A stretch of DNA of 64,000 nt from an uncultured SAR86 cluster bacterium (GTDB lineage Bacteria > Pseudomonadota > Gammaproteobacteria > Magnimaribacterales > AG-339-G14), in assembly GCA_902635045.1 (NCBI GenBank), contig CACPMT010000002.1:1-64000 (forward strand), written 5' to 3'. Within the stretch, counting starts at the first letter, position 1. Each line of letters starts with the position of its first letter. Of the stretch, positions 5,937 through 21,230 are shown piece by piece. The position numbers were made by a program, and so were the translations under genes. The notes beneath the pieces were generated by a model. It was not told the origin of the DNA, made no database searches, and saw only the letters and a list, made by a program, of their open reading frames with translations.

Positions 5937-6470
5937 ATGGCATTTAGAAACTTAAGTTTACTTGTTTTATCGTTATTTATTATTGCTGGATGTGGCGGTG
6001 GCGGTGGCAGTAGTGAAACTCCTGCTGCTTCTAATTCTGCAGCTACTGGTTGTTCGCCTAGTACAACTAACTTGTGTATTACAGTTCGTGAAACCGGGGG
6101 CGGCGCATACGGTGGTAATGTAAGTCGTGATTACGCTGTGCAGAATAGTTCGTCTGCTGGAGTTGCAAACAAAGCATTAACACTAAATGCTGGCACTTAT
6201 GTGTTTGATCAAACTGAATCCACTAATGCAACCCATCCTTTGAGAATATCTACAACTGCCGATGGTACTCATGGTGGCGGTTCAGAGTATACAACTGGCG
6301 TAACTGTCACTGGCACTCCTGGGACAGATGGCAAAACTACCATAGTAATCAATGCTCAGACTCCCACAACACTTTATTATTATTGCAGCAGCCACGCTGG
6401 CATGGGAGGTCAAATCAATATTGTCCTAGGAAACCAGTCAGGCCAAGTTGAATTTACTGAAACCCAATAA
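5937..6470 (+). CDS. lipoprotein with C-terminal cupredoxin-like domain
   Basis: ATG at 5937 with SD GGAGA is preferred to the upstream TTG at 5925. Lipobox IAGC followed by GGGGG; HPLRIS...YYYCSSHAGMGG fits type-1 Cu ligands His/Cys/His/Met. Confidence 0.7.
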   Translation: MAFRNLSLLVLSLFIIAGCGGGGGSSETPAASNSAATGCSPSTTNLCITVRETGGGAYGGNVSRDYAVQNSSSAGVANKALTLNAGTYVFDQTESTNATHPLRISTTADGTHGGGSEYTTGVTVTGTPGTDGKTTIVINAQTPTTLYYYCSSHAGMGGQINIVLGNQSGQVEFTETQ

Positions 6471-6488
6471 TTTATTTGAGGATTAAAC

Positions 6489-9419
6489 ATGATTAAAAAA
6501 ATTTTTCTTACCTTCGTATTAATTTTAAATATTAATTTAAATGCAACGGACTACGATGACGATGCAGCAAAAGTTGATTTTTATGTGCCTGGAATTTTGG
6601 CAAACGATGCTTTGTCTCAAGTGAATTTTTTACTTTGTTTTCAAGCAAATACCAATTTTGGAACGTTTGCTAATGCTGGTCCATATAAAGTTTTAATAGA
6701 TGAAGCAGCATGTCAAACAGCCGATGGAGCAGATGCAGCAGCAGAATTACAGGCTGCTACTGGGGGAAGTTCGGAAGTTGCTACAGACTCAGCAGTTGCA
6801 GCTGTGGAAGAGGTTGTATATAGCCCAGGAATAATGAATATAACTTCAGATGCTGATGGTAAGTTAAATGGCGTAGGTTGGTTTGATATTATAATTGATA
6901 TGGATGACAACGTTACGGTTGACTCAACTGCTTACGTTCAAACTGTATTAAGGCAAGACGTTGGAGCAGGACGTCCATATGGTAACTTCACTTTACTTTA
7001 TGAAATTAAAACGAATGAAGCTGTCACTGTATCAGGACAGCAGATTCCACTAGGAACCGCAATTTTAAAAGGTTATCTAGATGTTGAAGGCACTACTTTA
7101 AAATACTACGAAGATGGACCAAATTTTACGCCAAGAGGAATTGTTGGTGTTCTAGGAACAAACAAACGTAATGGTTATTTACTTACAAACATTCAAAAAT
7201 TTTCTGGCAATCCTCCGAATATAACTGTTGATTGGTATCAAGCAAGATATAAATTATTCCAAGATCTTACCGCCAAAGTTTATTGTCAAAAATTTGATAG
7301 AGCCATAAAGTACAATGTAACAGCTCAAGGGTTACAACCCTCTACGACTACTTATGAAGACGCTACAGCTTTTAATAACGAAATTGCTGCAGCTTTTACT
7401 AATCCACCAACTGCCTCTCTTTCTTTGGAAGGAGGAACCAAAGCAACCGTTCGTAACGAGAATTGTTGGAGTACTGATATTGCCGAAGCGACTAGAGTAG
7501 TCTATGAATACGGAACTTATTTGGATACAACTGGAGCTAGATATGACCTTCCTAGTACTTCATTGTCGTTAGAAGCAAATCCTACTGATAATCCTGGTGC
7601 CAATTTAACTCAAAACATTTATGCTCATGCAAGTTATCATGGCACGCACGTAAGAGATTCAGATCAAGCTAAAATTAATAGCAACTTAATTTTTAAAAAT
7701 CAACGAGATTCATCGGATACTGCGGTTTATTCTTTAACCAAAAATTATTATCAGGTTTGGAAAAAAACTTCTGCAACCAAAGCACTCAACCAGTTAGACG
7801 GTATAGGTTTTCAATGGTATGTAGGTGGTCTTAAAACTCATCCAACCTGGAGTTCAAAAATCGGAGCGAGTGGTTTTAGTTGGCCTCTCACCGGAAATTG
7901 CAACGCTGCGCAGGGAAACTGTCCTGAATATTCTGGATATATAACTGTTAACGGTGCGAATAACGTTGTTACTTTTACAGCCACTCACGGCATGAATTGG
8001 AATACTTCGCCACCAATAAAACCATTTGAGTTAAACACGCCTTTGACTTTTACATCGACGCAATGGGTCGCAGCAATGACCGACGGCAGTGGCTGGAATG
8101 AAAGTATGTATTTTCACAATCCAGATTCCAGAGAACAGTACCGACTTCCCTATGCTGCTTTTAATAACACGACTGCGGCAAATGTTAAAATAACTGCAGA
8201 AAATAAAGTCGATATTGCGTCATTAAATGGTAAAACTTTTATCTGTGTTGAAAGATGTTTAGCAAAGGACAACTTAAACAATGCCATAGCCGATGCTTTT
8301 ACTAAAGTTGATGCGGGGGCAAATCCTGCGGTTTTAGGTCATACACCTTATAATTTCACAGGCCCCTTTTTTAAAGTGGCAAGTTATTACGATGGTGGAA
8401 CGGTTAACGAAGATCAAGACGGAAACGAACCAACTGAGGGTGCTGGCAGGTACAACAATATTGGCGGTGTTGTAAATGCTGAATTATCAAGTTATACCGT
8501 GAGTAACGGAGTTCTTGTTGGGTCGGTTAATGACGGAGGAAATATCGAATGGACACCAGCAAATGCAAGTAAGTTAGATCAAAGAAAATATAGGGACGGC
8601 ATCAGAAGATATCAATATAAAACTAAGTATCCTACTTTCACCGTTGATAATTGGACAAGACAATTCGGCCATTCTTTTCGAATGACTGCTATTGATCAGA
8701 CCGACAAAGCTAGCATTAAGTGTAGTACAGTTGGTGGTAACGCAAGAGGCTATACCAATAAATATCGTGCTCAGACAACAGCTGGAGGCTTTAGTACGGA
8801 CGATTCTCTTCTTGTGACTGGCGACGTCTACTATTGTGGTCGGAAAATTAGAGAAGGTGTTGTCGATAGTTATGTTTTTGAGTTGCTCAAAAGACCAGAT
8901 TACAAAATCTTAAAAGATGGTCAAGCGGTAACAATTTCTCCTCCTAAAAGTTATGAATATGCTGTTCCAGCAAGTGGCATAACTTATAATTTTCCTGGTA
9001 CTAATTTAGCCGGTAAGAAATTTACTCTTAAATTTGAAGGCTTTGGTAATCTTCATAATTTTCCAGGAAAAGTTTTCAATACATGCACAGGAGATGTTGT
9101 TGGAAGGTATGTAGATTCTTGGGATGAGTGTTATCGATACATACCAGAATTTACTTTGCCTGATGCAGCCATCCTTACAGACAAAACAGGTAATGAAGAC
9201 ATCCGAGTCAGAGCATTAAGGGGTGATGAGTTTTTAAAACAGTTTGCAACCAATAATCTTCCCGGTAATAGAACTTATGCAGATGATTTGGTTTTACCTA
9301 CTGCTAGTGATTTAGTTACGGTTTCTTCTATTATTGGCACTAAACCAACAACTGGAATCCTCAATGGAGGAAAAGCGTCTGTTATTCACGGTGAAACTGT
9401 AGCAGCTCCAAGTCCATAA
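6489..9419 (+). CDS. large secreted protein of unknown function
   Basis: Signal peptide MIKKIFLTFVLILNINLNAT; 976 aa; several paired Cys; no family recognised; segments resemble ORF 12276..13994. Confidence 0.75.
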   Translation: MIKKIFLTFVLILNINLNATDYDDDAAKVDFYVPGILANDALSQVNFLLCFQANTNFGTFANAGPYKVLIDEAACQTADGADAAAELQAATGGSSEVATDSAVAAVEEVVYSPGIMNITSDADGKLNGVGWFDIIIDMDDNVTVDSTAYVQTVLRQDVGAGRPYGNFTLLYEIKTNEAVTVSGQQIPLGTAILKGYLDVEGTTLKYYEDGPNFTPRGIVGVLGTNKRNGYLLTNIQKFSGNPPNITVDWYQARYKLFQDLTAKVYCQKFDRAIKYNVTAQGLQPSTTTYEDATAFNNEIAAAFTNPPTASLSLEGGTKATVRNENCWSTDIAEATRVVYEYGTYLDTTGARYDLPSTSLSLEANPTDNPGANLTQNIYAHASYHGTHVRDSDQAKINSNLIFKNQRDSSDTAVYSLTKNYYQVWKKTSATKALNQLDGIGFQWYVGGLKTHPTWSSKIGASGFSWPLTGNCNAAQGNCPEYSGYITVNGANNVVTFTATHGMNWNTSPPIKPFELNTPLTFTSTQWVAAMTDGSGWNESMYFHNPDSREQYRLPYAAFNNTTAANVKITAENKVDIASLNGKTFICVERCLAKDNLNNAIADAFTKVDAGANPAVLGHTPYNFTGPFFKVASYYDGGTVNEDQDGNEPTEGAGRYNNIGGVVNAELSSYTVSNGVLVGSVNDGGNIEWTPANASKLDQRKYRDGIRRYQYKTKYPTFTVDNWTRQFGHSFRMTAIDQTDKASIKCSTVGGNARGYTNKYRAQTTAGGFSTDDSLLVTGDVYYCGRKIREGVVDSYVFELLKRPDYKILKDGQAVTISPPKSYEYAVPASGITYNFPGTNLAGKKFTLKFEGFGNLHNFPGKVFNTCTGDVVGRYVDSWDECYRYIPEFTLPDAAILTDKTGNEDIRVRALRGDEFLKQFATNNLPGNRTYADDLVLPTASDLVTVSSIIGTKPTTGILNGGKASVIHGETVAAPSP

Positions 9420-9425
9420 TTTATT

Positions 9426-9446
9426 GACCTTCTTTTTAAGAAGGTC
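9426..9446 (+). terminator. hairpin, terminator-like
   Basis: Perfect 9-bp stem GACCTTCTT-TTT-AAGAAGGTC just after the stop at 9419; weak T tail. Confidence 0.5.
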
Positions 9447-9460
9447 TTAAATTACGCACT

Positions 9461-9718
9461 ATGGATCAAGACAGCTTAAATAGAATCATTGAAATGGCTT
9501 GGGAGGATCGAACTCCTTTCGACGTCATTTATCAAGAATTTGACATCTCACAAAAAGAATTAGAACGCTTGATGAGAAATAATTTAAAGCCCAGCAGCTT
9601 TAAACTTTGGCGCAAAAGAGTCTCGGGCAGAAAAACAAAACATATCGCAAAAAGAAACAATCAGATCGATAGGCATAAATGTGACAGACAGGGAAAACTT
9701 GTTAGCAAAAGAAGATAG
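9461..9718 (+). CDS. TIGR03643 / DUF2805 family protein
   Basis: MDQDSLNRIIEMAWEDRTPFDVIYQEFDISQKELERLMRNNLKPSSFKLWRKRVSGRKTKH is characteristic. Confidence 0.8.
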   Translation: MDQDSLNRIIEMAWEDRTPFDVIYQEFDISQKELERLMRNNLKPSSFKLWRKRVSGRKTKHIAKRNNQIDRHKCDRQGKLVSKRR

Positions 9719-9992
9719 AATTGATTTAATTTATGAATCTTTAAGCAGCAAACTTCCTGATACGTCTATTTCTAAAAATTCTGATGAAGTCTCAATCAAG
9801 ATAAACTCAAATAATCCTGACCCAATTGAAATATCAATTCAATTAATTCAGAACCAATATAGAGTTACTTATTGGGATGGTTATGCAGTAAATGAGTTTT
9901 ACGATTATGCAAACTTGAATAAGGCTCTAAAAAAATTTAACAAATTTACTTTGAAAGCTTTTAATAATATTCAAAAGTTTGGGATCAAATAG
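9681..9992 (+). CDS. small conserved-looking hypothetical protein
   Basis: GTG start inside the 3' end of the preceding gene, overlapping it out of frame; plausible composition. Confidence 0.45.
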   Translation: MTDRENLLAKEDRIDLIYESLSSKLPDTSISKNSDEVSIKINSNNPDPIEISIQLIQNQYRVTYWDGYAVNEFYDYANLNKALKKFNKFTLKAFNNIQKFGIK

Positions 9993-10848
9993 AGCTTATA
10001 AATTCTTTTATATGCAATCCTATGTCATCTGGAGAGTGCTCCTGAATAAAATGATTACCCTTCACGGACACTTCTTTTAAGTTTTTCCAGGTTCTCACAA
10101 ATTCTCTTTGGTCGCCAATTAAGATAGATCCTGGTTCTGCATTGATAAACAGTTTAGGGATATCTGAATCTTTGTGAAATTCAGAATTTTTACTTACTTC
10201 TTCGACAACTTCACTGGGTTCACCCTCGATAGGTATTTGTCTTGGCCATGTAAGGGTAGGGCGTCTGTCTTCGCCAGGGTTTTTAAACGGTCTTATGTAT
10301 TCAGCTTTTTCTTCCTCTGAAAAACCATTGGCTGAATCATTGAGCAAAATTCTTTCGACAAAAATATTTTTTTCCAAAACAATTTTTTCACCAGCTTCAG
10401 ACCTCATTAGTTGAAATATATTTCTGGCATTTTCAGGCCATTGTTCCCATGTTAAAGGCATCACTATTGCTTCCATGAAACTTATGGATTTAATTAGATC
10501 TGAGTTTTCTCTTGCATACTGAAAGCCCATTGCTGAGCCCCAATCATGAATAACCAAATTAATTTGATTTCCTAAATCCAAAGAATTCAATAAAGTTGAT
10601 AAATATTTATATTGGCCATGATATTTATAGTCGGGGTTGTCTATGCCTTCTAATTTTTCTGAATCGCCCATGCCAATTAAGTCTGGAACTATTATTCTTC
10701 CCATGCCTTCAAGATGAGGTGTAATGTTTCTCCACAAAAAAGAAGAAGCAGGATTGCCGTGAAGAAAGACAATTGAGTCTCCTTCACCATGATCTATGTA
10801 AGCCATTTTTTTTCCTAAAATTTCAATATATTTTTTTTCTGCGCTCAT
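9985..10848 (-). CDS. haloalkane dehalogenase-like alpha/beta hydrolase (HLD-II/LinB-like)
   Basis: HGNPASSFLWRN oxyanion/halide motif, VIHDWGSAMGF Asp nucleophile, KGNHFIQEHSPDDIG catalytic His. Confidence 0.85.
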   Translation of the reverse strand: MSAEKKYIEILGKKMAYIDHGEGDSIVFLHGNPASSFLWRNITPHLEGMGRIIVPDLIGMGDSEKLEGIDNPDYKYHGQYKYLSTLLNSLDLGNQINLVIHDWGSAMGFQYARENSDLIKSISFMEAIVMPLTWEQWPENARNIFQLMRSEAGEKIVLEKNIFVERILLNDSANGFSEEEKAEYIRPFKNPGEDRRPTLTWPRQIPIEGEPSEVVEEVSKNSEFHKDSDIPKLFINAEPGSILIGDQREFVRTWKNLKEVSVKGNHFIQEHSPDDIGLHIKEFISSI

Positions 10849-10915
10849 AGTAACTCCTTTATAATCTAGAAATTATAAATTAAAAAAACTCTTTATTTAT
10901 AATTTGGAGGTCATA

Positions 10916-12040
10916 GTGAATAAAATATTTTCAATATTGTTTTTTTTAGGTCTTATTTTAACGGGGATATTTCAATACACTAGAAATCTTGATGTAGAAG
11001 TAAATTATGAGAGATTTAATTTGGTTTCTCCTGGCATTCTAAGAACTCCTGAAGAAAGATTTAAGAATTTAAAGGACTATGATTTTGAACCAAACTATCT
11101 TCAAATCAACGGTTTGAGAATTCATTATTTAGATGAAGGCCCTAAAGACGGCGAGGTGATATTTCTTCTGCACGGACAACCAGCTTGGAGTTATTTGTTT
11201 AGAAAGATGATTCCTACTCTCGTCGGTGAAGGCTACAGAGTAATTGCTCCAGATATGGTAGGTTTTGGAAAATCCGATAAGTACATCAATATTGATGATT
11301 ACTCGCATCAAATGCATGTCGACATAATAACTAATCTGATAAAAGAACTAGATTTAACGGATATAACCGCTCATGTGCATGACTGGGGAGGGTTAGTTGG
11401 TTTGAGAGTTGTTGCTGAAGAACCAGATAGATTTTCAAGAGTAATTGCTTCTAATACAGGTTTAATTGCTCCGGGCAGGGGCTTGATTAACGATATAAGA
11501 GGTTTTTTCTTAGGTCCTATATTTAAATTAACTATTTGGTTGCAGGGTCCAGCGACATGGGAAGAATTTATCGGCGGAAGTGGTTTTAGTAACTGGATTA
11601 GATATTCAAGATACACTGATAACATTGACGTAGGTGGTGTCATGCAAACCTTGGGCTCTGTAAATTCCGAAGAGAGATTGGGATATGAAGCACCTTATCC
11701 AAATGCGTCCTATAAGGCCGGTGCTCAAATTTTTCCATATTTAATTCCTAGCGAATTAAGAAAAAATGAAATGGCTTTCAGAAACGTATTAGAAAAATGG
11801 AACAAACCATTTTTAATCGCAAATAGCGATAATGATCCGGTGACAGGAAACAATCCTGGAATTGTAGAAGGCTTAAAAAGAATTCCTTCCGCGCAAGAAA
11901 TAGTTATAAAAGGTCCAGGACATTTCATACAAGAAGAAGCTGGCCCAGAGTATGCACAACTTATAATTGATTTTATTAATGGAAATCCTCAAGGCTTCGA
12001 AGTAGAAAGTAAAGACGTAAATCTGAAGGAGATTTTATAG
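10916..12040 (+). CDS. haloalkane dehalogenase-like alpha/beta hydrolase (HLD-I/DhlA-like) with N-terminal membrane anchor or signal
   Basis: GTG at 10916 preceded by SD GGAGG (track start TTG 10904 lies on the SD). HGQPAWSYLFRKMIP, HVHDWGGLVGL, GPGHFIQEEAG; hydrophobic N-terminus VNKIFSILFFLGLILTGIFQY. Confidence 0.85.
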   Translation: MNKIFSILFFLGLILTGIFQYTRNLDVEVNYERFNLVSPGILRTPEERFKNLKDYDFEPNYLQINGLRIHYLDEGPKDGEVIFLLHGQPAWSYLFRKMIPTLVGEGYRVIAPDMVGFGKSDKYINIDDYSHQMHVDIITNLIKELDLTDITAHVHDWGGLVGLRVVAEEPDRFSRVIASNTGLIAPGRGLINDIRGFFLGPIFKLTIWLQGPATWEEFIGGSGFSNWIRYSRYTDNIDVGGVMQTLGSVNSEERLGYEAPYPNASYKAGAQIFPYLIPSELRKNEMAFRNVLEKWNKPFLIANSDNDPVTGNNPGIVEGLKRIPSAQEIVIKGPGHFIQEEAGPEYAQLIIDFINGNPQGFEVESKDVNLKEIL

Positions 12041-12149
12041 ATAGAAACTGAAGTTATTAAATTTAATATTTTCCCCAAAAAACCTAATTAGTTCTTTAAA
12101 TTTTTTTTAAATTATATTAAATTTAAAAGGAATTTAAATAGATTAAAAA

Positions 12150-12275
12150 ATGAAGATATTTTTTTTAGTAATCATTTCTTTTCTTATTTTTTCCTGCGGT
12201 AGTGGATCTAATTCAAGTACTGAAGACACATTCCAATTCAAAAATGTTCCAGACGATTTAACGATCTTAGATTAG
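12150..12275 (+). CDS. 41-aa mini-lipoprotein
   Basis: Read directly: MKIFFLVIISFLIFSCGSGSNSSTEDTFQFKNVPDDLTILD, lipobox IFSC; its stop abuts the ATG of the next gene (TAGATG). Not in ORF track. Confidence 0.6.
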   Translation: MKIFFLVIISFLIFSCGSGSNSSTEDTFQFKNVPDDLTILD

Positions 12276-13994
12276 ATGAAGAAAATTCTTTTTTTAACTT
12301 TAATTTTTTCCAGCGGCATATTTTCTTTTCCAGATTTAAATACATTTGATAAATCCAAACCCATCTGGAGAAATGCAAAAATTATATACGTACATCAATA
12401 TATGTTGGACGTTGCTTTTGGCAGAATAAACAGTTACTTATGCCTAATTAATAAGACGGATTACCAAAATAATTCAAATTTGGGAGACGGAATTGGTTAT
12501 AAAGTAATCTTGAACAATTCTGATTGTGAACATGCAGAAGCTTCTATACCTTGGACGGTGGTTTCAAAACAAGAATCAAAGAATGCAGATCTCGACATAG
12601 AACTGTTCAAGTCAGATCAAGCTGTTGACTATAAGTTAAAGATAAACATAGAAGAAGAAGTTTCTGATTCTAATCCTTTTGGAGTATTAACTATAGATTA
12701 TAGTTCCGTATTTAAATCTAATTCGTCTCCTTTATACAATGCATCTTATGAATCAAGAAAACTTTCAGAAAATCAAGTTAAATTTGAAGCAGCTTATTAT
12801 ATGGATGGTGTTGTTATAAATAATTTAATTCCCTTTGAATTCGATAAATATTTTTATTCATCAAAAATTATCCATACATCTAACTCAGGAGGGTATGGGA
12901 CTGCAACTTCGCTCAATTTTAATCCAACTATAGAAATTCCAAATACAGGAGGAGTTAAATACCTTACTTACTTTGCTGCACAGTATCCTCAATATTTTCC
13001 TACAGGTTATACAGGAAATTATCCTGACGGGAATCCAATTTCAATACAGACAGTAAATTTTGCTTACAATGATAAAGTTATTAAATTTGAAGTTACCGAT
13101 GGGTATTCTGGCGTCAAAAATGGTGTTTGGTTAAACGCAGGACCTAATGGTGGTGGAACATTTCAGCGATCTTCTCAAAATTCAGAATTGTGTGTCAATA
13201 GAACCGGAAGTTGGACTTATGTAGGGCCAACAAATTATGGCGTCTATAATACTTCTGGAGATAGAATAAATAACAATCCTGACGGGGATGGAAATCCCAA
13301 CACAGCTTTATCAGTCAATTATAACTTACAAGCCATAAATAATATCACTGCAAATAATGCCACCTTCGATGGAACTATAAAAATTTTTAGTGGTAGCTGG
13401 GTTGGAACTGGTCTCCAATGCAAAAAAATTGCAGATGGAAGCTCTTATGGAAATACTCTTTGTCCTGGAACTACAACAGGAGACGTAAGCACTATAGTTC
13501 TTATTAATGGAGAATATTATTCAAACTTTCCTTTTTTCGACGTTCCGGAAGGTACCGTAGTAACTGATGCTCAAGGTAACGAATACTATATAAGGCAGTT
13601 AGGTGAAAAAAAGGTTTATCCAATGAAACCTGTAGGAGACTCAGATTGCGCTACATTAACTTTGCAAAATACTTTAGATACACCGGACCATAACTTTTTT
13701 AATTATCCAGTTATGAATTTGCCAAAATCAGGAGCTGTTATTATTAATGAATTTTCATCTGATCCACTGGCAGATGAATATTTGCAGGGTAAATCTTTTT
13801 CAAAAAATGGTGACGATGATGGCGATGGCGTCTTAAATTATTTGGATGCTTTTCCGGAAGATGCTCTTAAAAGTTTAGACGCCGACCAAGATGGTATAGA
13901 CGATGCTGTCGATAATAACATTGCTCCATTTCAATTAGATTGGAATAATTTTAAATACTCAGGAAAGTCTCTCTATTCTAATTATTCTAAATAG
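12276..13994 (+). CDS. secreted protein, related to 6489..9419, with C-terminal TSP3-like Ca-binding Asp repeats
   Basis: Signal peptide; DDDGDGVLNYLDAFPEDALKSLDADQDGIDDAVDNN; shared motifs with the 976-aa ORF. Confidence 0.75.
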   Translation: MKKILFLTLIFSSGIFSFPDLNTFDKSKPIWRNAKIIYVHQYMLDVAFGRINSYLCLINKTDYQNNSNLGDGIGYKVILNNSDCEHAEASIPWTVVSKQESKNADLDIELFKSDQAVDYKLKINIEEEVSDSNPFGVLTIDYSSVFKSNSSPLYNASYESRKLSENQVKFEAAYYMDGVVINNLIPFEFDKYFYSSKIIHTSNSGGYGTATSLNFNPTIEIPNTGGVKYLTYFAAQYPQYFPTGYTGNYPDGNPISIQTVNFAYNDKVIKFEVTDGYSGVKNGVWLNAGPNGGGTFQRSSQNSELCVNRTGSWTYVGPTNYGVYNTSGDRINNNPDGDGNPNTALSVNYNLQAINNITANNATFDGTIKIFSGSWVGTGLQCKKIADGSSYGNTLCPGTTTGDVSTIVLINGEYYSNFPFFDVPEGTVVTDAQGNEYYIRQLGEKKVYPMKPVGDSDCATLTLQNTLDTPDHNFFNYPVMNLPKSGAVIINEFSSDPLADEYLQGKSFSKNGDDDGDGVLNYLDAFPEDALKSLDADQDGIDDAVDNNIAPFQLDWNNFKYSGKSLYSNYSK

Positions 13995-14851
13995 TGAAAA
14001 AATTTTTAATTTTTTTTAGTTTAATTTTTTTGTTTTCATGTGGTAATACAGATACTACAAATATTGAAACAAAAGCATTCACGAATAAAAAAACAGCAAT
14101 TTTCTTTATGGAAAATATTCTTGATATAGAGAAGGTTAAACCTTTATTGCATGAAAATTTTAACTTTACTTTTATGGGCAACACTATTATTTCAAAAAAA
14201 GCCTACAATACTAAAGATTGGATTGACCAATGGAACGGAGAAATCATTCCGGCTTTACTGCCGAATGGAATAGAACTATTTATTGAAGATGTAATTTCAG
14301 ATGAAGAGGGAACAGCTGTGCTTCTTAAAGGAGACGCAGAAGGCATCAACGGAGAATATGATAATGATTACGTATTTGTATTTAAGTTCAAAGATGACAA
14401 GATTATTTCCTTGGTTGAATACAACAGTGATTTATTAGTAGCCACGAGACTTTATAAAAACAAACTAGTTTCTACTGATCCTAATAAGATTGGAGATCCA
14501 AAGGAATTTGTAGAAGAATTTCTTATTTACTTTAATGCTCAAGATAAATTGAATATTGAAAAAATTACGAGTTCTCCTTTTTACTTTAATGATCAAAAAT
14601 ACAATAAATATACAGATGCTTTTAATTTTGATGGCTTAAAGAGTAATGGTTGGTCTTATTCATCAGTGATTGATACTAAGACACTATTTAACAATGGTCA
14701 TGCTGCCTTGATTTCCTTTGACTTTGCAAGACACAACAAAGAAGGTAATCCTTACTTAAAAAGTAGAATTTTTTATATGCTAACTGTTGAAGAAGGTAGA
14801 TGGATTTTAAACGGAGGATATACTCCAGGTCCTATTCCAATGGGAAATTGA
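13994..14851 (+). CDS. lipoprotein with SnoaL/NTF2-like region(s)
   Basis: GTG start overlaps preceding TAG by one base; lipobox LFSC; SnoaL-like pattern. Confidence 0.55.
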   Translation: MKKFLIFFSLIFLFSCGNTDTTNIETKAFTNKKTAIFFMENILDIEKVKPLLHENFNFTFMGNTIISKKAYNTKDWIDQWNGEIIPALLPNGIELFIEDVISDEEGTAVLLKGDAEGINGEYDNDYVFVFKFKDDKIISLVEYNSDLLVATRLYKNKLVSTDPNKIGDPKEFVEEFLIYFNAQDKLNIEKITSSPFYFNDQKYNKYTDAFNFDGLKSNGWSYSSVIDTKTLFNNGHAALISFDFARHNKEGNPYLKSRIFYMLTVEEGRWILNGGYTPGPIPMGN

Positions 14852-17661: not shown

Positions 17662-20001
17662 TTAAAATTTTAATCTTAATTTAATTATGAATTTATCAAG
17701 TGTTTCATTTGTCCAGGCATCTGAATATATATCTTGAAAATCATCTTGCTGATTAAAAGCTTTTGTAAGCTTTCCTCCTCTTGAATAAACTACGTATAAA
17801 TTAGACAAAGGAGAGAATTCATACTTATATCTTATTTGAAATGCTGTCTCAGATAATTGAAATGCGTTCATGTCATCTGAAGCAGCATTCATATATCCAC
17901 TTGAAGTTACTCTATATGAACGGGGATCTTTTGCTTTGATTCCATATATCTTTCCTTTGATTCTAAATTCTTGATTTGAGCCAATAAAATAATCAATGCT
18001 TAAGCTCGAAGATATCTGTTCTTTATCATAATAGCCAAATAGGTTTTCTTTTCTCCAAATACTCCAGTTTGATTTTTTTTGATATTCAAACCAATCTATA
18101 TTTAGCTGAAATAATCCAGAAGGTTTAAAAACATTAGAATACCCAAAAGAATGACTCTCATTCCTCAAATCTAAATTTTGTTCTTGTGTTTGATAACCAA
18201 AGCTTCCATACGATGCCTTATATATTGATTGAATTTTCTTAGTTCTAGGGCTTGAATACTCAACCATCAATTTAGCCCCAGATAATTCTTCTATAAAGGG
18301 AGCATCTTGATATTTTCTAGTTTCTTCGTAGTCTTTTCCTCGAATGAAATTACAGTAACATTTGAAACCAAGAGATGAGCTATCTCTATATTGAAATTTA
18401 TAATCAAAATACATACCTATTCCATTTCCATAATTGCCATCAACTGATTGTTGATGCAATAACCTAAAACTAAATTCTGTTTGAGATATTGAAGAATCTA
18501 AATTTTTGTTTGGTTTTAAATATTGAAGGTACGTTCCTACTGAAAGATTATCAAACTGTTTAACATATCCCATATCATTGATGTCAAAATTTTCATCGCT
18601 ATAATTGAGAAAATACAGAACGAAAAGTTCTGGCGTTACTCGAACTGTATAATTTGTTTTAAAACCATAGCCCTTTTTCTGAACCCCTTTTTCCTTGATA
18701 TCTATCTCACCTGCCCAACCATAAAGTCTTGAAGCAAAAGAAGGTTTAAAATCAAAATCTATGACATTAGCCATTGCTTTTCTATCGATAGACGGTCTGT
18801 TTACAGAAGTAGTTAAATATCCTACTTTTCCACTATTTTTAGATAAATTTGCTTTATATCTAAAAGCAAAATAATCTCTTCCTTCTGAAAACAGTGAATC
18901 GTCTTCATTAGCCATAAAGAAACCATATTTATTTATTTGCCCTTCTTTTGTATATCTAAGAGCATAATTTATATCCGATGTATCGCTAATTGAACTATCA
19001 CACTCTCCTAAATGAGCTTCGTTGGATTCAGAACATTTATCTGGCGCGCCCCCAATTCTTCTCGTGTTTATGAATCTTAAATCCCAACCTGTAATATCAA
19101 AAAGACTTTGATTTTCGGTAAAAAATGGTCTTTTATCCGGATAAAAAGTTTCATTTGCAGAAAAATTTATAATTACGTCATCGCTCTCAACTTGACCAAA
19201 GTCAGGATTTAAAGAAATATCTAATTTAGATTCTGAATCGATGTCCCAGAATATTTCACCCCCAACATTAAAATTTCTATTATTTTGAATGAAATTATTA
19301 GTACCACTTATATATGGAAAAAAATCTATATTTTCTTTAGATTGATTGTCGTATTTATAATTTGCAATCGATATTTCTTGCATTCTTGATAAAAAAGGCG
19401 AAAGCTCAGCCCATAAGCCTGGCATATTAAAATATTTTGATTCTGATTGAAGTTGCCTGCCAACGGATATTTTAATTTTTCGATAATTCTCTTTCACTTC
19501 TGACATTGGTGCAACGCCCCAGGGAATAAAATATTCTGCATACCAGTTATTTTGTGCTTGAGATGTTTTCGCTTCCCAAATAGCATCCCAATTTTCAGAA
19601 ATATCATTTTCATTAACCCATATTGCATCTCTTAAAGAATCTCCTAAGCTAACAGTAAATTCATAACCAATATTTGCATTTGCATCAAAATCAATAATTA
19701 AAAAAATACGATCCGAATCTACATTAGAAGCATCTCTAGAATGTTTTTGAGAAACTTGAGTGTCCAAGGGTTGCTCATTAGTTATGCCAAAATACAAGCC
19801 GTTTTGATTAGAAAAATATTGGATTTTTGTTTTATATATTGGATCTGACTTATCATTTGGGAAAACTGTTAAAAAATTATTTAACGTTTCAGCATCTTGC
19901 CATTCTTGTTCTGATAGTTTTCCGTCAATAGTTATAGAAAAGATGAAGGAGTTAAAGAAAAATACAATTAAGAAATAATAGAAACTAATCAATCTAACCA
20001 T
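17662..20001 (-). CDS. DUF5916 / CBM9-like outer-membrane protein
   Basis: N-terminal IDGKLSEQEWQDAETLNNF...KTKIQYFSNQNGLYFGI; beta-barrel-like alternation ending in KFIIKLRLKF. Confidence 0.8.
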   Translation of the reverse strand: MVRLISFYYFLIVFFFNSFIFSITIDGKLSEQEWQDAETLNNFLTVFPNDKSDPIYKTKIQYFSNQNGLYFGITNEQPLDTQVSQKHSRDASNVDSDRIFLIIDFDANANIGYEFTVSLGDSLRDAIWVNENDISENWDAIWEAKTSQAQNNWYAEYFIPWGVAPMSEVKENYRKIKISVGRQLQSESKYFNMPGLWAELSPFLSRMQEISIANYKYDNQSKENIDFFPYISGTNNFIQNNRNFNVGGEIFWDIDSESKLDISLNPDFGQVESDDVIINFSANETFYPDKRPFFTENQSLFDITGWDLRFINTRRIGGAPDKCSESNEAHLGECDSSISDTSDINYALRYTKEGQINKYGFFMANEDDSLFSEGRDYFAFRYKANLSKNSGKVGYLTTSVNRPSIDRKAMANVIDFDFKPSFASRLYGWAGEIDIKEKGVQKKGYGFKTNYTVRVTPELFVLYFLNYSDENFDINDMGYVKQFDNLSVGTYLQYLKPNKNLDSSISQTEFSFRLLHQQSVDGNYGNGIGMYFDYKFQYRDSSSLGFKCYCNFIRGKDYEETRKYQDAPFIEELSGAKLMVEYSSPRTKKIQSIYKASYGSFGYQTQEQNLDLRNESHSFGYSNVFKPSGLFQLNIDWFEYQKKSNWSIWRKENLFGYYDKEQISSSLSIDYFIGSNQEFRIKGKIYGIKAKDPRSYRVTSSGYMNAASDDMNAFQLSETAFQIRYKYEFSPLSNLYVVYSRGGKLTKAFNQQDDFQDIYSDAWTNETLDKFIIKLRLKF

Positions 20002-20014
20002 AATAAAGATTTAA

Positions 20015-20269
20015 TTATTGAATGGATCCTAAAATTTTAGCTCTATATATAACCTCTGCATATTGATCGCAATTGAAATCTTTTATAGTTATCCAATCTT
20101 TTAACATGGACTTCTCTTCTTCACTATAAGATCCAATCATGAATGCATAACATGCTTGAAAATCTGATAATTCCTTAAAGGTAATAATAATTTTTTTTTC
20201 TTCAGAAGAATTACAAAATAAAGAAAAAAATATTAAATAGAAAAAAATAATGCTCTTCATATTATTCAA
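20015..20269 (-). CDS. small secreted hypothetical protein
   Basis: Signal-like N-terminus; overlaps the start-side neighbour by 8 nt, as in an operon. Confidence 0.5.
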   Translation of the reverse strand: MNNMKSIIFFYLIFFSLFCNSSEEKKIIITFKELSDFQACYAFMIGSYSEEEKSMLKDWITIKDFNCDQYAEVIYRAKILGSIQ

Positions 20270-21230
20270 TGGCTTTCAATCTTTTTTCAGTTCTGTAGAA
20301 AAAGAAAAAAGACAATGTCGCCAAAGCGCAGATTATATGCCAAAGAGCATGGGGTTGAATAATTGAATCTGGATAACACCATTCAGAATCGGGATTTATC
20401 ATTAAATTTCCTTGCAGCCATATAGTAAATGCCAAAATATAAAAAAAACAACCCGCAAAGAACCAAGGATTATATTTTCTTTTGCTCTCGGGTCTCTGAG
20501 TTGCTATCAATCCTGGAAGCCAAAATAAAAGAGTCCACCAAAATTCTTCAATATTTAAGGCTACATCGTAAGGTGAAGTACCAAATATCCATAAAACGAG
20601 ATAGCCTACAAATCCAGAATAAAATCTCATTGAATTTGAATAGAAATTATATAAAAACTCAGAAATTACCCATAAACCGATTGAAACACCAAATAAACTA
20701 AAACCAATACCCAGTTCTGAACCATAAAACCAACTAAAAAAAGAAAACAAAAATAAAATTACAAAATACGCTTTTAAAAATTGATTCTCTGTCCACCCAT
20801 TTAAAATTTTGAAATTTAAAAGCCAAGGAATAATAATGTAAGCGACCATACTTACATTATCAATCCAAGCTCCCCAAACCGTATGAGTTCCATGCATCAT
20901 CAAGGAACCAGGGCCTAAAAAGATAGATGCAGAGGCATATAGTGTAGAAATAGAAGTAAGCCCAATAAAAAAGTTTTGGCCAGTAACTTCTTCTCTAGAG
21001 AGGATCCAAACCATAAAAATTCCACATAGAATAAAACCAATGTTACTTAAAGCGTTTGATGGTTCCCTAAAATATCCAGAACTTATTCTTTCACACCATC
21101 TAGAACTTTCACCTATTTTGTAGCCCTCCTCAACGGAAAGCATGATGCCTGAGTAGGCAAATAGAAAATAAAGTAGAAAAAAGGCAAGAATAAATGAAAT
21201 TGCAATTGTAAGCGCGTAATCTTTAAGCAT
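20262..21230 (-). CDS. ceramidase-like (CREST superfamily) membrane protein
   Basis: SRWCERISSGYFREPSNALSNIGFI, HGTHTVWGAWIDNVSMV, HALWHIICAL match the WCE / His-Asp / HALWH layout of alkaline ceramidases; multiple TM segments. Confidence 0.65.
   Translation of the reverse strand: MLKDYALTIAISFILAFFLLYFLFAYSGIMLSVEEGYKIGESSRWCERISSGYFREPSNALSNIGFILCGIFMVWILSREEVTGQNFFIGLTSISTLYASASIFLGPGSLMMHGTHTVWGAWIDNVSMVAYIIIPWLLNFKILNGWTENQFLKAYFVILFLFSFFSWFYGSELGIGFSLFGVSIGLWVISEFLYNFYSNSMRFYSGFVGYLVLWIFGTSPYDVALNIEEFWWTLLFWLPGLIATQRPESKRKYNPWFFAGCFFYILAFTIWLQGNLMINPDSEWCYPDSIIQPHALWHIICALATLSFFFFYRTEKRLKAIE

Follow-up and report, generated by a model that had tools for sequence, protein, structure and literature searches.

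Two pairs of adjacent genes in a SAR86 genome each appear to encode one lipoprotein in a two-gene (split) form, with the two halves exported separately and a short motif at the end of the first half binding the second. We place the probability of this reading at about three in four. The cassettes are interpreted in this way because other Pseudomonadota carry the lipobox, the Gly linker, the motif and the A domain in one chain. Adjacent genes that form one chain elsewhere are a classic sign of products acting together.

In the proposed mechanism, the product of the small gene would consist of a lipid anchor, a tether rich in Gly and Ser, in some cases extended by another domain, and a short motif at the C-terminus. 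The gene after it would encode the large body, which is rich in beta structure, would carry disulfides and has a Sec signal peptide of its own, and the anchor and body halves would cross the membrane by separate export. The motif, which sits just ahead of the body domain in one-chain relatives, would bind to the body, probably by contributing a complementing beta-strand to it, and this binding would tie the body to the outer membrane.

Two cassettes in one SAR86 window

The window, i.e. the whole stretch of 64,000 nucleotides that was analyzed, originates from a SAR86 genome of 1.1 Mb. All open reading frames of the initial annotation were recovered in place, as were, in cassette B, the junction TAGATG and the overlap of stop and start by one base (TAGTG). 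The anchor half of cassette A, lipoprotein A (positions 5937-6470, + strand), is 177 aa long from its ATG. The codon of its lipobox Cys (5991-5993, +) is followed by a GGGGG linker, and the mature part of ~160 aa includes a spacer with HPLR and YYCSSHAGM(GG) motifs. The spacer is labeled cupredoxin-like on the strength of the YYCSSHAGMGG motif only; no match to support the label was found in Pfam, NCBIfam or PDB sequences. At its C-terminus, lipoprotein A carries SGQVEFTETQ (6438-6467, +), the equivalent, degenerate in the window's genus, of the motif shared by the partner lipoproteins and of its internal counterpart in the fused proteins described below. The body half, A (6489-9419, +), comprises 976 aa with its own Sec signal peptide, eight conserved Cys and a conserved C-terminal P-S-V-I-H-G.

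In cassette B, the anchor half (12150-12275, +) has only 41 aa, 26 of them in the mature protein, and ends in NVPDDLTILD (12243-12272, +). It is followed by the body half, B (12276-13994, +; 572 aa), which has its own signal peptide, and by a SnoaL-like lipoprotein of 285 aa (13994-14851, +). The C-terminus of B (window ~13800-13920) contains an Asp-rich stretch that by eye resembles a calcium-binding (thrombospondin type 3-like) repeat; Pfam gave no match to it. Two haloalkane dehalogenase genes lie between the cassettes, one at 9985-10848 (-; PRK03592, E 3e-109) and a second, encoding an N-terminal membrane segment, at 10904-12040 (+; PRK00870, E 2e-93).

Homology of the A and B bodies

Of 101 genomes, among them the window's own, 33 contain relatives of A and 11 contain relatives of B. 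A scan of the genome collection added 34 loci, including K189A, TMED92 and FRAM18 Pseudomonadales records. In a BLASTP comparison of A with B, the N-terminal block alone is well matched (E 5e-4). Profile-profile alignment of 40 A with 10 B sequences by hhalign reveals three homologous blocks in the same order: an N-terminal block (A1-181/B1-152; E 7e-11 to 6e-10, or 6e-8 without the signal peptide) and, aligned as separate segments, a middle block (A311-358/B284-337; E 1e-4) and a C-terminal block (A864-911/B394-443; E 3e-6). Reversed and column-shuffled control profiles gave no E below 0.047. The three ordered motifs that had been noticed in both proteins are thus shared above chance, and the suggestion that A and B belong to one novel family is upheld by an HMM-HMM match in three blocks. 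Between the middle and C-terminal blocks, A is ~500 aa longer than B. A domain duplication in A had also been proposed; a search for an internal repeat found none.

The family is marked by C50 and C75 in the N-terminal block, C326..Y-G-x-Y in the middle block and T-[DN]-x-x-G at the end of the C-terminal block, together with the elements of a motif-ending lipoprotein, either in an adjacent gene or fused to the N-terminus. The invariant cysteines of the A and B bodies suggest that disulfides may form, as expected of an exported protein. Neither A nor B has a significant match in Pfam or NCBIfam, and searching PDB sequences with profiles gave no real match for either. Annotated relatives were sought among plasmids, and none were found. 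The AlphaFold2 model of A is confident (pLDDT 82, pTM 0.72) and mostly beta. A Foldseek comparison of this model with the PDB gave a best E of 0.006, and a comparison with BFVD likewise gave no fold match; the result applies to A, set against solved (PDB) and viral (BFVD) structures only. The outer-membrane and surface beta proteins BtuB, LbpB and OspA resemble the model in their long antiparallel beta-strands and appear as weak Foldseek rows only, but with TM-scores by query length of at most 0.11 and no E below 0.001 they are not a real fold match. Since no catalytic family or fold was recognized, we lean weakly towards a binding or structural rather than an enzymatic role for A and B.

Partner lipoproteins and one-chain homologues

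After removal of redundancy, 63 of 65 A/B relatives have a lipobox-containing open reading frame directly upstream: all 10 relatives of B and 53 of the 55 of A, with a contig end cutting two of these partners. Among control genes from the same loci, 9 of 536 have an upstream lipoprotein, and in 2 of 536 it is no longer than 100 aa. The earlier proposal that each body has a dedicated lipoprotein therefore holds across the family. Tandem copies of A each have their own partner. One orthologous pair of A genes (L071/L109) has no adjacent lipoprotein. The partner gene ends between -32 and +29 nt from the start codon of the body gene, and at most B loci stop and start codons are directly adjacent (gap 0). 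Most partners have 40-90 aa; a second size class of 156-180 aa includes the cupredoxin-like ones of the window's genus, and a third spans 500-990 aa. The two ends of the partner are constant, with a lipobox and Gly/Ser tract at one and the C-terminal motif at the other, and the middle is variable, giving a spacer of ~10 to >900 aa. At three loci (L054, L055 and L064; e.g. L064:6471-8165), another GGGG-lipoprotein of 560-580 aa lies directly upstream of a gene for 183-188 aa; it does not have the P-x-x-I-x-x-V-E tail and may represent a separate pairing.

The C-terminal motif shared by the partners is P-x-x-[IV]-x-x-[VI]-E, with an EM score of 123.5 compared to a maximum of 91.6 across 60 shuffles. 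In one group, pairwise comparison counts 42 synonymous and 4 nonsynonymous changes in the motif codons and 13 and 112, respectively, in the signal peptide of the same genes; the pair counts are non-independent events, and their direction is clear. Judged by these substitution patterns, the motif codons are under protein-level constraint.

A class-wide search identified relatives in 14 further Gammaproteobacteria, and a phylum-wide search yielded more, including genomes from other classes. Many of these relatives outside SAR86, in other Pseudomonadota, are single-chain lipoproteins in which the lipobox is followed by a Gly tract, the segment G-[LV]-x-[LM]-P-x-x-[MIL]-S-V-[VI], tens of residues and the entire A domain. 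One of them, L148, holds the whole A domain (A 11-970 aligned to L148 76-840, 3e-47). A 13-residue matrix built from split tails of all clades detects the segment that follows the linker and precedes the A domain in 8-9 of 10 fused chains, with none of 2000 shuffles reaching the sum; the matrix was made after the fused sequences had been seen, and its p-value is to be weighed together with the visible alignment. An earlier 8-residue, SAR86-biased matrix gave a weak signal in the fused proteins. One fused group has a long insert between the Gly tract and the body, and a KVSVVD segment is still found ahead of the body. The split form also occurs outside SAR86 (L142, L149, L151, L152 and L164), where the small lipoprotein again carries the motif at its end. 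A tree of 38 body sequences has three changes between the fused and split states, at least two of which are forced by supported branches.

We infer that the halves rejoin outside the cytoplasm, non-covalently and via the motif. From its pattern and position, the motif would bind as a beta-strand, and the body would probably reside at the outer membrane and may be exposed on the surface. In an AlphaFold2 prediction in which the small lipoprotein of L098 was read through into the A body, the motif is disordered (pLDDT 22-29) and forms no strand; the alignment, drawn from certain loci only, contained few paired rows and no fused homologues, so that this is a weak test, though one that lends the proposed binding no support. 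Stop-codon read-through as a means of making the fusion was considered and rejected: orthologues do not share a stop codon (the window has TAG and L086 has TGA), and the body has retained a signal peptide of its own.

Envelope-protein operons often include small lipoproteins, and the partners might accordingly be independent envelope proteins that share an operon with the body, their motif serving some other purpose such as sorting to the outer membrane or interaction with export machinery. That AlphaFold2, with shallow pairing, does not dock the motif would fit this explanation. However, the same motif occurs inside fused homologues, just ahead of the body. Being internal there, it is not a C-terminal sorting signal. 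The pairing moreover holds for 63 of 65 relatives and persists outside SAR86, and we regard independent function as unlikely. The directly adjacent stop and start codons at most B loci would also suit a small reading frame that acts mainly as a translational leader, providing initiation and coupling for the large gene, with an irrelevant peptide. The range of gaps, partners as large as 500-990 aa, motif codon changes that are synonymous and keep the protein, and the presence of the same peptide within fused proteins make this very improbable. A frameshift or assembly error in a single lipoprotein gene could be imagined from the existence of fused homologues, but dozens of genomes keep the split and a second signal peptide is conserved at the N-terminus of the split bodies, so that this explanation is refuted in practice.

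The surroundings of the genes offer a further alternative, in which A and B work with the dehalogenases in a catabolic module, as adhesins, receptors or secreted enzymes. A dehalogenase is found near A at 15 loci, and the initial annotation had linked the two. However, this is conserved synteny confined to one SAR86 family: three genera have the dehalogenase genes next to A, in convergent orientation, whereas neither the fourth genus nor the relatives outside SAR86 have them near A. A catabolic module is extremely doubtful, and both haloalkane dehalogenases are neighbors outside the system. The SnoaL-like lipoprotein, previously counted as part of cassette B, follows B only in the window's genus and is an accessory gene outside the core unit.

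Separately from the split-lipoprotein reading, several other genes were noted in the vicinity. A protein of ~340-370 aa resembling an outer-membrane barrel recurs next to A and its lipoprotein in family f3 of SAR86 and in the K189A and TMED92 relatives (L111:6142-7155, L104:6096-6938, L113:14099-15214 and L112:14295-15410); a relative was sought in the window's genome and none was detected. A gene for a ceramidase-family membrane protein (PF05875, E 4e-13) lies 11 kb from A in the window (20262-21230, -), and in another SAR86 family the same gene overlaps or directly follows A (L068:9840-10811; L067:5539-6486). The window also encodes a DUF5916 protein of 779 aa (17662-20001, -), adjoining a TPR lipoprotein of 556 aa and a putative cyclase. 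A gene for a DUF2805/TIGR03643 protein (9461-9718) is followed by a 103-aa reading frame (9681-9992), and SAR86 genera g1 and g2 have this pair next to A as well.

Relation to known systems and significance

The partners resemble lipobox-plus-Gly-tract lipoproteins, in which an LxxC lipobox precedes a CGGGG(S) stretch; the NCBIfam model NF058595 ('lipo-invert') overlaps the lipobox/Gly region of lipoprotein A alone (E 0.011). In contrast to those proteins, the anchor here terminates in a conserved motif, and a gene of its own encodes the body. Pilins of chaperone-usher and type V pili use donor-strand complementation, and by analogy the short beta-strand peptide could complete the fold of another chain. 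Unlike the components of these pili, the present proteins show no homology to pilins, chaperones or ushers and have single-chain homologues, and strand insertion is a proposal. SAR86 accounts for ~2-6% of surface-ocean microbial communities, and the main text of a paper describing a SAR86 isolate mentions neither lipoproteins nor dehalogenases (PMC11582366). Our search of open-access papers returned nothing relevant on lipoproteins that are split or anchored by a strand, or on an earlier description of such a system in SAR86.

The A/B family is absent from all domain databases searched and has no solved fold. The occurrence of this large exported family as one membrane-anchored chain in many Proteobacteria and as two side-by-side genes in SAR86 suggests that the halves meet outside the cytoplasm, and the fused and split versions constitute a natural experiment that predicts which piece binds which. 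We slightly favor the broader view that a lipoprotein was repeatedly broken right after its docking strand, the large half gaining a signal peptide and rejoining non-covalently at the membrane, which would be a general strategy for holding a very large exported body in place with a tiny lipid adaptor. The signature of a small Gly-rich lipoprotein next to a large exported protein helps to annotate reading frames of ~40-60 aa that gene callers may miss.
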